Source: Sphingomonas sp. NFR15 (GTDB lineage: Bacteria > Pseudomonadota > Alphaproteobacteria > Sphingomonadales > Sphingomonadaceae). Taken from it: a DNA stretch of 64,000 nt. The stretch is from contig NZ_FMWX01000003.1 in NCBI RefSeq assembly GCF_900103265.1, positions 434,001 through 498,000 of the forward strand, in the 5' to 3' direction. A model generated the notes under the pieces. It was not told the origin of the DNA and ran no database searches. It saw nothing but the letters and a program-made list of their open reading frames with translations. How positions within the stretch are numbered: position 1 is the first letter of the stretch; each line of letters begins with the position of its first letter. Shown one piece after another: positions 2,928 through 5,466 of this stretch. The position numbers were made by a program, and so were the translations under genes.

Positions 2928-4124
2928 TCAGCCGAGCGCGGCCTGTTTCTCTTCGGCCAGGCGGTCGAGCTCGGCGCGGCTCTTCTTCTCGCTCGCGGTC
3001 TTGAGCTGGCCGCACGCGGCATCGATATCGCGGCCGCGCGGGGTGCGGACCGGCGCGGAGATGCCCGCTTCGAACACGATGTCGGAGAAGCGCCGCACGC
3101 GCTCGGGCGTCGAGGTCTCATAGGCCGCGCCGGGCCAGGGGTTGAACGGGATCAGATTGACCTTGGCGGGCAGGTCATAGTGTTTGAGCAGCCGGACCAG
3201 CTCGTGCGCATCGGCGTCGCTGTCGTTCTTGTCCTTGAGCATCACGTACTCGAAGGTGATGCGCCGCGCGTTGTTCGCGCCGGGATAATCGGCGCACGCC
3301 TGGAGCAGTTGCTCGATGCCGTATTTGCGGTTCAAGGGCACGATCTCGTCGCGGATTTCCTTGGTGACGCCGTGGAGCGACACCGCGAGATTGACGCCGA
3401 TCTCCGCGCCCGCGCGCGCCATCATCGGCACCACGCCCGAGGTGGAGAGCGTGATCCGCCGCTTCGACAGCGCGAGCCCGTCGCCGTCCATGACGATGCC
3501 GAGCGCATCCTTGACCGCGTCGAAATTATAGAGCGGCTCGCCCATGCCCATCATCACGATGTTGGTGAGCATCCGCCCCTCGGGCGTGCTTGGCCATTCG
3601 CCGAGCGCGTCGCGCGCGAGCATCACCTGGCCGACGATCTCGGCGGCGGTGAGGTTGCGCACCAGCCGCATCGTGCCGGTGTGGCAGAAGCGGCAGTTGA
3701 GCGTGCAGCCGACCTGGCTCGACACGCAGAGCGTACCGCGATCGGCATCCGGGATGAAAACCGCCTCATACTCCTCGCCATCGGGCGCGCGCAGCAGCCA
3801 TTTGCGCGTGCCGTCGGTCGAGACCTGCGCCTCGACCACCTCGGGCCGGCTGATCGCGAACCGCGCGGCGAGCCACGGCTGCATCGTCTTGGAGATGTCG
3901 GTCATCAGCGAAAAATCGGTGACGCCGCGATTGTAGATCCAGTGCCAGAGCTGCTTGGCGCGCAATTTGGCCTGCTTGGGTTCGAGCTGCGCGGTCTCCA
4001 GCGCCATGCGCAGTTCGAGCTTGGACAGCCCAAGCAGGTCGATACGGCCGTCCGGGCGCGGCGTCGCGGCGCGGGGGACGGGCACGGGATCGATGTGCCC
4101 GGGGATGGGCATGGAGAGGGTCAC
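2928..4124 (-). CDS. rlmN: RlmN, 23S rRNA A2503 / tRNA A37 C2-methyltransferase
   Basis: A radical-SAM methyltransferase of 398 residues with CTLNCRFC (Cys140, 144, 147), the three ligands of the 4Fe-4S cluster, and a late [12 protein letters not shown] carrying the catalytic cysteine of the dual-cysteine mechanism. It methylates A2503 in the peptidyl transferase centre and A37 in some tRNAs. Start: GTG at 4124 gives a GTGA overlap with the stop of the NYN gene and has AAGGA nine bases upstream. An in-frame ATG at 4151 lies inside the NYN gene and ATG 4112 is the other alternative. Co-translation with a putative RNase gene is notable. Confidence 0.95.
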
Positions 4125-4831
4125 GCTGTCGGTTCCTTCATCATCCGGCACGTCCGAACACCATCGACATGCTGTAACAGATCCTTGGCTGGAGTGCCTC
4201 CCATCGGATCGAGCACCACATCAATGCCTTCACGGCGCGCGAGCTTTGTCGCTGGTACGAAATCGGCGTCGCCCGCCACGAGCACGATTTGATTGACTTG
4301 CCGTTTGAAGGCCATTGCCGCTACGTCGAGACCGAGTTTCATATCGACGCCCTTCTGCTTGGTATCGATCTCGAAATCCTCGTCGGTCAGGACGGCGCCC
4401 TCCGACGTCAGAAGCCTTTTAGTACTTGCTGGGCGTATGCGCCATTCGGAGTCGTCGTTGAGCCGGCCGAGCCGCAGCGCCACCTTGCGGACGCGTTGCA
4501 ATTCGTCATGCACCGCAAAGCGAAACCTGGCTTCGGGTGTCTTTGAAAGATCGATCGCCGTGCGTGAGACCGGACGGTGAAGCTTCTTAATCAGCGGCGG
4601 GCAATCATAGAAAAAGATACGATAGAGTTCGCTGTCCTCCGCCGGACTGAACTGACCGTGAGCGACCGCACGCTCCATCAGCTTGGGGCGCATCCGATGA
4701 TGGAGGTGCCAGAATGCCATCCAGCCAACCGCGAACGCTATCTTTGCAGGATCGCTTGGATCGAGTTCCGGAAATGACCATTTGAATCGGCGCAGAAAAT
4801 ATGCGCCATCAATGACAATCGCTGTCGGCAT
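4121..4831 (-). CDS. NYN-domain (PIN-like) putative ribonuclease
   Basis: 236 residues starting [12 protein letters not shown]. The acidic residues expected of the NYN/PIN nuclease fold are present: D8 in VIDGAYF, D163 in [11 protein letters not shown], and D188/D190 in [19 protein letters not shown]. Family members (LabA/DUF88 group) are metal-dependent RNases or RNA-binding regulators; substrate here is unknown. The gene is clearly more A+T rich than its neighbours (one 60-base stretch near 4561 is 50% GC), suggesting different origin. It is preceded by a hairpin RNA element at 4854-4919 ending in a T tract 22 bases from the start codon, and its stop overlaps the rlmN start (GTGA). The ribosome binding site is weak (CAGG). 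Confidence 0.82.
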
Positions 4832-4853
4832 TCGAGCAGCCTGAAAACAAAAA

Positions 4854-4919
4854 GTCCCCGGGCTCGGCCTTGAGATGATGTCTGCTCTCGCGAGCGCCTC
4901 AAGACGTACTGCCGGGGAC
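4854..4919 (-). ncRNA. Compact structured RNA or transcription attenuator upstream of the NYN nuclease gene
   Basis: On the minus strand three nested stems can be read directly. The outer stem GTCCCCGG (4919-4912) pairs with CCGGGGAC (4861-4854). A middle stem CTTGAG (4903-4898) pairs with CTCAAG (4874-4869). A terminal hairpin is GCTC-GCGA-GAGC (4895-4884), whose GNRA tetraloop appears only on this strand. The outer stem is followed at once by TTTTTGTTTT, like an intrinsic terminator. With the promoter-like sequence just upstream this would make a discrete RNA of roughly 70-75 nt, or a leader that gates the nuclease gene. I do not recognise it as a named RNA family. Confidence 0.6.
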
Positions 4920-4929
4920 CGGATGCCGC

Positions 4930-4958
4930 ATATTTAGCATATCCGCCCGAAAAATCAA
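4930..4958 (-). promoter_or_regulatory. Candidate promoter of the hairpin RNA / NYN gene
   Basis: On the minus strand TTGATT (4958-4953) is followed after 16-17 bases by an AT-rich TAAATAT (4936-4930) that can act as a -10 box. Initiation about seven bases further on would place the RNA 5' end within a few bases of the GTCCCCGG stem. The AT-rich box is conspicuous against the GC-rich background. No experimental support. Confidence 0.4.
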
Positions 4959-4959
4959 C

Positions 4960-5466
4960 TCACCGCCCCACACACGCCACCGCCGCCGCATCGATCGCGG
5001 TCGCCGCGCCGGCGAGCGCATAGACATCGGCGAACGGGCCACCGCTGTTCGCCAGCGTCTCGACGCTCATGCTGCGGCCGGAGCGGATCGCGGCGACGAT
5101 CGCGGCGTCGGCGCGCGCATCGGGCGCCCAGGCGTCGGCGTCGGCCGCGACCAGCTCGAAGCGGCGTTCGCCGACCGACAGCGTCACACGCGCGCGGGGG
5201 TCGCGCGCGCGGCTGAGGCGGAGGTGGAGTTGGTTGCGCGCGCCGCGCGCCGGCCAGTCCGCCACGCTCGCGAATGGCCGCCAGCGGGCGCTGCCGCCGC
5301 TCCGCACCGGTTGCGCGATCGCATAGCAATGGCGCGGCGCGAGGTCGGTGAACGCGCCCCAGCTTTCGAACACGCCGATCGTCTCGCGGCCCCATGTCGG
5401 GCCGGGGGCGAGCAGCGCGAAGATCACGCCGGCGAACATCGCGCGTCGCTTTGCCTTGGAAGTCAT
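4960..5466 (-). CDS. Secreted protein resembling the invasion-associated locus B (IalB) family
   Basis: 168 residues with an N-terminal signal sequence (MFAGVIFALLAPGPTWG, after a Lys/Arg-rich start). The mature part starts with IGVFESWGAFTDLAPRHCYAIAQP, reminiscent of the IalB fold (Trp and Cys near the mature N-terminus, then beta strands), with a second cysteine at the extreme C-terminus (ACVGR) that could form a disulfide. IalB-like proteins are periplasmic and poorly understood in free-living bacteria. Divergent from the outer-membrane barrel gene. The family assignment is tentative; otherwise it is a secreted protein of unknown function. Confidence 0.6.
   Translation of the reverse strand: MTSKAKRRAMFAGVIFALLAPGPTWGRETIGVFESWGAFTDLAPRHCYAIAQPVRSGGSARWRPFASVADWPARGARNQLHLRLSRARDPRARVTLSVGERRFELVAADADAWAPDARADAAIVAAIRSGRSMSVETLANSGGPFADVYALAGAATAIDAAAVACVGR

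Follow-up and report, generated by a model that had tools for sequence, protein, structure and literature searches.

The window analysed here, a stretch of 64,000 nucleotides of Sphingomonas sp. NFR15, carries on its minus strand an IalB-like gene, followed in turn by a stretch resembling a promoter, a 66-nt hairpin with a U-run behind it, a gene for a NYN-domain protein and rlmN. The individual features are as follows.

4960-5466, minus strand: IalB-like gene (Pfam match below the cut-off), the upstream border of the insertion site
4953-4958, minus strand: tentative -35-like box, TTGATT
4931-4936, minus strand: tentative -10-like box, TAAATA, spaced 16 nt from TTGATT, read from the sequence and a weak match
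4854-4919, minus strand: structured RNA (from folding and covariance models), with P1 (8 bp), an internal loop CAGUAC/CGAGC, P2 (8 bp) and P3 with a GCGA tetraloop
4844-4853, minus strand: U-run after P1, TTTTTGTTTT, a terminator-like RNA end with presumed read-through into the NYN mRNA
4121-4831, minus strand: gene for a probable NYN-domain RNase, 236 aa, PHROG 5783 family
2928-4124, minus strand: rlmN (TIGR00048), a neighbour only, with a possible start that overlaps the NYN stop

The original prediction, made from the letters of this DNA, had drawn a 66-base element of three stems and a GCGA tetraloop, whose outer 8-bp GC stem runs directly into TTTTTGTTTT and is followed after 22 nt by the start of an NYN gene more AT-rich than its surroundings. 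The element folds as drawn, the NYN ATG lies 22 nt from the hairpin and opens an intact ORF, and the G+C content of the gene is 57.0% vs 67.5% for the window, lower than that of every 711-nt segment tested (step 100). Two further parts of the prediction need qualifying. The proposed overlap with rlmN is there as a GTGA shared by the NYN stop and a possible rlmN start, but the longest rlmN ORF begins further upstream, at 4151; the promoter-like sequence has its TTGA in register in all nine sphingomonad copies compared, but a promoter scan of the window found no consensus match here. A simple terminator scan calls nothing at the window element either, owing to its loop limit of 8 nt.

In eight of the nine sphingomonad copies rlmN follows the module, and the distance from the end of the ialB-like match to rlmN is 826-864 nt in seven copies with the module vs 53-71 nt in five module-free relatives. 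The fetched flanks of 29 other rlmN loci of the same genus contain no NYN match (0/29), and no rlmN match is found in the fetched flanks of any non-sphingomonad NYN locus. The coupling of the unit to rlmN that had been proposed is therefore a local matter, seen solely in sphingomonads, and rlmN was rejected as a general partner.

The NYN protein matches Pfam PF01936 (NYN) at E 2.2e-8, above the cut-off, and this is the sole Pfam family found at E<=0.1. A sequence search of solved structures gave no match for it; its AlphaFold model (pLDDT 89.7) has as best fold match the NYN domain of MARF1 (Z 17.4, rmsd 2.4 over 143 residues, for the predicted model), followed among solved relatives by Vibrio VPA0982 (Z 16.8). 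Among 133 NYN proteins of 200-300 aa, a set that leaves out the distant group L014-L021, all have D8, D163, D169, D188 and D190 (100%), and 99% have D76; we take these acidic residues to be the catalytic ones. The product of the gene is likely an RNase, an RNA-cutting enzyme. PHROG 5783 is listed as a family of unknown function, and PADLOC gives weak partial matches only for this protein.

Relatives of the NYN protein were gathered without regard to the DNA upstream of their genes, giving 147 loci: from 17 of 397 genomes of the same family (in 7 of these 17 the match is shorter and only distantly related), from GTDB genomes (38 loci), from 12 of the phage (15) and plasmid (165) records, and from viral contigs (the best 80 of 219 relatives). 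Many of the collected genes are preceded by a hairpin of comparable build. Its copies were aligned in two separate sets, for which we coined the names Firmicutes-type and proteobacterial-type, and two covariance models were built, R1 from 43 Firmicutes-type elements with no sphingomonad among them and R2 from 13 proteobacterial-type elements with the window included. The original prediction depended on the hairpin recurring before other NYN genes, and a covariance search does find it there: run on the window and on 142 of the 147 loci (five near-duplicates being omitted), the models match an element at E<=0.01 in 100 of the 142. On the same strand and 4-71 nt (median 25) before the NYN start lie 98 of these matches; the other two are L127, which differs by the choice of start codon, and L115, where the match is behind the gene. 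Training loci make up 55 of the 142, and 45 of the 87 held out are matched, some of them as near-copies of trained loci (L123 of L062, for example). R1 recovers the window element at E 3.7e-4 (520 kb searched) and every one of the 13 elements used for R2, the window's among them, at E<=0.0014; at whole-genome scale it missed four of 21 genomes known to carry the element. In the Sphingomonas genome the element is single-copy, the next R2 match being at E 0.05. Pairs of RNA and NYN with a model match come from Sphingomonas, Legionellales, Geobacteraceae, Clostridia, Treponema and Nitratifractor, and thus from at least five phyla.

No model match at E<=0.01 was found in 42 of the 142 loci, which include the distant NYN group of about 200 aa (L014-L021), Campylobacter and Helicobacter (L054-L056) and truncated contigs; many of the unmatched loci show variant hairpins by eye (e.g. 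L064, L066 and L068). Among the 147 upstream regions a strict motif test was positive in 49, vs 0.1 on average in a shuffled set and one of 406 control windows, and a stem detector that asks for 8/8 pairs found 71 vs 3.4 in shuffles, while its loose form (7/8 pairs, loose anchors) was unspecific, with 90 of the 147 vs a mean of 35.

By folding energy the window hairpin, with P3 forming the GNRA hairpin GCUC[GCGA]GAGC, has an MFE of -32.8 kcal/mol and a z of -2.35, and 5 of 200 shuffles fold equally well. Covariation confirms that it is a real conserved structure, more than chance. In 64 aligned copies P1 is paired at 97.7% with an identity of about 55%, the pairing percentage being inflated by the choice of the aligned elements, made partly on stem pairing; sliding the P1 partner by one column brings pairing down to 49-55%. 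The compensatory base changes among homologues on which the prediction had staked the structure are present, two-sided changes being found in all eight P1 pairs, and over the whole structure of the 64 sequences there are 169 double-change cells vs 37.9 in shuffles. Taken apart, the 43 Firmicutes-type copies have double changes in 14/14 pairs and the 13 proteobacterial-type copies in 14/16. The third stem also holds in nine sphingomonad copies, eight of which keep a GNRA loop (GCGA, GCAA or GAAA). Given the selection of the aligned elements, the recovery by R1 of the other set's elements, together with the 45 matches among the 87 held-out loci, is better evidence than the pairing percentages.

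The internal loop is the part conserved in sequence: mean pairwise identity is 0.90 for its AGUA side and 0.89 for the facing GA vs 0.55-0.57 in P1, with U12 and A13 the same in 64/64 aligned copies and A57 in 63/64. We take this loop, AGUA facing GA, to resemble the bulged-G motif of sarcin-ricin type. The letters of the sarcin-ricin loop in E. coli K-12 23S rRNA are AGUACGAGAGGACC; the sarcin-ricin pattern was not found in the Sphingomonas assembly, perhaps because the rRNA genes are missing from it or masked. No tandem repeat array was found in the RNA region, which holds a single hairpin.

A set of 93 distinct homologous RNAs was examined for flanking signals. Six or more T occur within the next 10 nt behind 81 of them, vs 5.2% when positions are drawn at random, and two promoter-like boxes (<=3 mismatches, within 90 nt upstream) precede 67 of them vs 27 of 262 control windows. 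Five of the nine sphingomonad copies (L005, L006, L007, L010 and L026) lack a U-run immediately behind the stem and have an A-rich stretch (AAAAUUU and similar) in its place; in these the RNA end may be made another way. As a GC stem with a U-run, the element might be read as nothing more than an intrinsic terminator belonging to the gene upstream, with the NYN gene next to it by chance. This is highly improbable, since the covariation and the recurrent pairing with NYN already speak against it: a conserved internal loop lies within the covarying stem, the element recurs before NYN genes across phyla, and promoter-like boxes stand upstream of the hairpin in 67 of the 93 copies.

Rfam at gathering score finds nothing in the window and nothing for the RNA in 13 loci. 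A permissive Rfam scan of 12 loci brought out TEG147 (RF03535) as a relative of the RNA; its model scores L209 (58.1) and L187 (57.3) above the gathering score of 56.1 bits and L192, L207, L188, L214 and L213 below it, and gives no match in the window, nor in the genome at E<=1. The two share the same RNA architecture, CAUGAGAGUAG...CGAAAUCAUGG, but the Rfam model of TEG147 is narrow and falls short of the window element. The RNA is thus not wholly new, TEG147 being a narrow relative. Excerpts of three papers describe TEG147 in S. aureus as a 60-nt RNA that is tabulated, with no validation entry, among the bona fide sRNAs that HG003 expresses (PMC5826253), as expressed from a genomic island (PMC3053349) and as having reached Rfam via a student course (PMC7779021); the same excerpts give no partner protein or function for it. 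In Rfam it is typed as cis-regulatory. In the open-licence literature neither an RNA-NYN pair nor a link of TEG147 to NYN was found among the matches listed, as judged by title and abstract opening. The statement in the original prediction that no named system has this arrangement therefore stands, as far as these listed matches go, for the RNA-NYN pair, and needs amending for the RNA, which has TEG147 as a narrow Rfam relative.

Genome searches with R1 gave 11 RNA copies that had not been brought in by an NYN gene. Two of them do lie beside one (L204, probably frameshifted, and L240) and one lies beside a broken NYN (L211), while the other eight have no NYN within about 1.5 kb (L187, L209, L210, L212-L215 and L241). 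In six genomes with such lone RNAs a search for NYN gave nothing at E<=0.001, although G633, which is among the six, also holds the broken fragment of L211; the seventh, G435, has an NYN gene elsewhere with its own RNA. R1 matched G441 alone among 395 genomes of its class, three of 295 genomes in the order of G435 and six of 199 in the order of G433. A DNA pattern search of viral contigs gave four, two with NYN that were already in the set and two (L206 and L208) with no NYN on the fetched 12-13 kb. In L011, an RNA with a perfect P1 precedes an NYN gene bearing five in-frame stops. The lone RNAs may be relics, or the RNA may have other roles.

These copies bear on whether the RNA is simply a cis-acting leader, in which case it would serve as an attenuator or be bound by NYN, which would thereby repress or cleave the mRNA encoding it, with no RNA acting in trans. 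Its place 4-71 nt before the start codon and its terminator-like end fit such a leader, as do the cis-regulatory typing of TEG147 in Rfam and the finding, in excerpts of PMC12373285, that the RNA RCd22 of an AbiF system also acts in cis through termination. A leader should, however, decay once its gene is lost, yet L011 and L211 keep the RNA, copies with model-level structure are present in six genomes that yielded no intact NYN of the family and others on the viral contigs L206 and L208 without NYN in the fetched sequence, and TEG147 is tabulated as a discrete sRNA in the excerpt of PMC5826253. An RNA that outlasts its protein is better predicted by an antitoxin or antidote than by a leader and nothing else; decay that set in only recently is another possible explanation. 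We consider a leader without any role in trans unlikely. Of the two alternatives first put forward, then, an attenuator as the sole role is weakened by the RNAs in genomes that yielded no intact NYN of the family, while a small stable RNA with a cognate RNase gains support, at the level of sequence comparison, from the covariation, the re-finding by models and the broad co-occurrence.

The RNA might also work with the nuclease and not as its inhibitor: as cofactor or sensor in a defence ribonucleoprotein, it would switch the enzyme on or direct it to its target. The strong conservation of the internal loop and the regular pairing with NYN are consistent with this, as is the correlation between RNA and NYN distances (Mantel r 0.355 over 62 pairs, with 0 of 2000 permutations as high). 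The excerpts of PMC11346440 describe a CRISPR-associated NYN ribonuclease, likewise a bacterial NYN RNase in a defence setting, that processes RNA in immunity; that enzyme differs in working with type III CRISPR, and the same excerpts mention no paired hairpin RNA. The core of the RNA has no variable guide-like stretch, however, the variable P1 being paired and covarying, and lone RNAs would fit an antidote better than a cofactor. A role as cofactor or sensor is in our view quite unlikely.

NYN relatives are encoded in 15 phage and 165 plasmid records, Campylobacter accounting for 136 of the 165 plasmid records. In the annotated phages L064 and L065, where a variant hairpin without a model match precedes it, NYN stands directly behind a LexA-family regulator, presumably a repressor, and in the phage L062, which has a model match, between an XRE-family regulator and an integrase. 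Among 5426 E. coli genomes, 73 hold the ev099-type region with at least 80% of the query covered. When plasmids and phages were searched for the RNA at the DNA level, no match was obtained. The pair of RNA and NYN looks like a mobile unit, spread on phages and plasmids.

Type III toxin-antitoxin systems (ToxIN, CptIN and TenpIN) are mobile units made up of an RNA gene, a terminator and an RNase gene. The present pair resembles them in having a terminator between RNA and protein gene, here a U-run in the window and in 81 of the 93 RNAs, which is missing in five of the nine sphingomonads; it differs in that their toxin is ToxN (PF13958), CptN or TenpN, where only NYN was found here, and in that their RNA antitoxin is a tandem repeat, where there is one hairpin here. 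The AbiF/Abi_2-RCd22 system is alike in its promoter, small structured RNA, terminator and toxin gene and in being prophage-borne, and its RNA acts both in cis, through termination, and in trans (excerpts of PMC12373285). It differs in its toxin, which is Abi_2 and not NYN, and in its RNA, the abiF motif (Rfam RF03085), which has no match in the window at gathering score and none up to E 2 in 12 loci that include the window copy L152.

On balance we lean towards regarding the pair as a mobile unit of this general kind, a type III-like toxin-antitoxin or anti-phage system in which the RNA would be the antitoxin and the NYN RNase the toxin, much as in AbiF-RCd22. The analysis itself establishes the pairing of RNA and NYN, the covariation, the order of the parts, a predicted NYN fold with invariant acidic residues and the spread on mobile elements; that this copy is transcribed, that NYN is toxic and that the RNA inhibits it are inferred, as are the trigger and the RNA that is cut. 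The promoter would yield a hairpin RNA of about 70 nt ending at its own terminator, and occasional read-through of that terminator would give the mRNA of the NYN-fold RNase. The RNA would be recognised via its conserved AGUA/GA loop, the surrounding stem being free to vary in sequence, and would bind and inhibit the RNase in trans, the leaky terminator keeping it in excess over the protein. A drop in the supply of RNA, such as a phage would cause by shutting down transcription in its host, would free the RNase, which might then cut cellular or phage RNA, leading to abortive infection or superinfection exclusion. The antitoxin reading is weakened by the RNA being a single hairpin and by several sphingomonad copies having no immediate U-run, as well as by the 42 of 142 NYN loci left unmatched, the eight of 11 unguided RNAs without a nearby NYN and the typing of TEG147 as cis-regulatory.

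If it is right, NYN nucleases would join ToxN and AbiF among the RNA-antitoxin systems, a function would be at hand for the orphan S. aureus sRNA family TEG147 and for the phage family PHROG 5783, and a widespread phage- and plasmid-linked unit would be opened to simple genetic testing. A bolder and rather doubtful extension is that the pair represents a new class of RNA-controlled toxins crossing phyla, in which the bulged-G-like loop (AGUAC facing GA) would mimic the target of NYN, for example the sarcin-ricin loop of 23S rRNA; temperate phages would carry the unit near their regulator genes so as to exclude other phages, and the stand-alone RNAs of phages and genomes would be antidotes.

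Some individual copies have other genes as neighbours. In L209 (1496-2679) the lone RNA lies directly before a promoter-like stretch, a hairpin leader and an Abi_2/AbiD gene (Abi_2 E 6.9e-35); a relationship of that leader to abiF found no support, the stretch before the Abi_2 gene matching neither R1 nor abiF. The best-scoring RNA copy of G435 (L187, 1587-2444) precedes a BRO-N gene and not NYN. By name we read this gene as DinD-like, Pfam giving Bro-N; DinD as a general partner of the RNA was rejected, with 0 of 24 viral-contig relatives having an R1 match at E<=1. On the viral contig L206 (9252-9569) a partial ToxN of 105 aa on the opposite strand runs into an RNA of the NYN type. The RNAs of L211, L212 and L215 (genomes G492 and G633), one beside a truncated NYN and two without NYN, adjoin small genes that from their sequence we take to be HicB-like, and their surroundings are possibly a region rich in toxin-antitoxin genes.

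On the Thermus thermophilus plasmid of L066 (136-6684), NYN, with a hairpin seen upstream by eye, has a helicase-related gene on one side and an N-6 DNA methylase gene on the other, in what looks like a defence island. Upstream of NYN in L064 (lambdoid) and L065 (a Proteus phage) there is a different hairpin, GCCCAGCCCCGUUCG...AACGGCUCUGGGC, similar in the two phages and without AGUA, which is perhaps a third RNA subtype. In L115 one NYN gene is flanked by RNA-like elements at 2933-2982 and 3945-3994, the upstream one a variant and the downstream one matched by R1 at E 3e-12.
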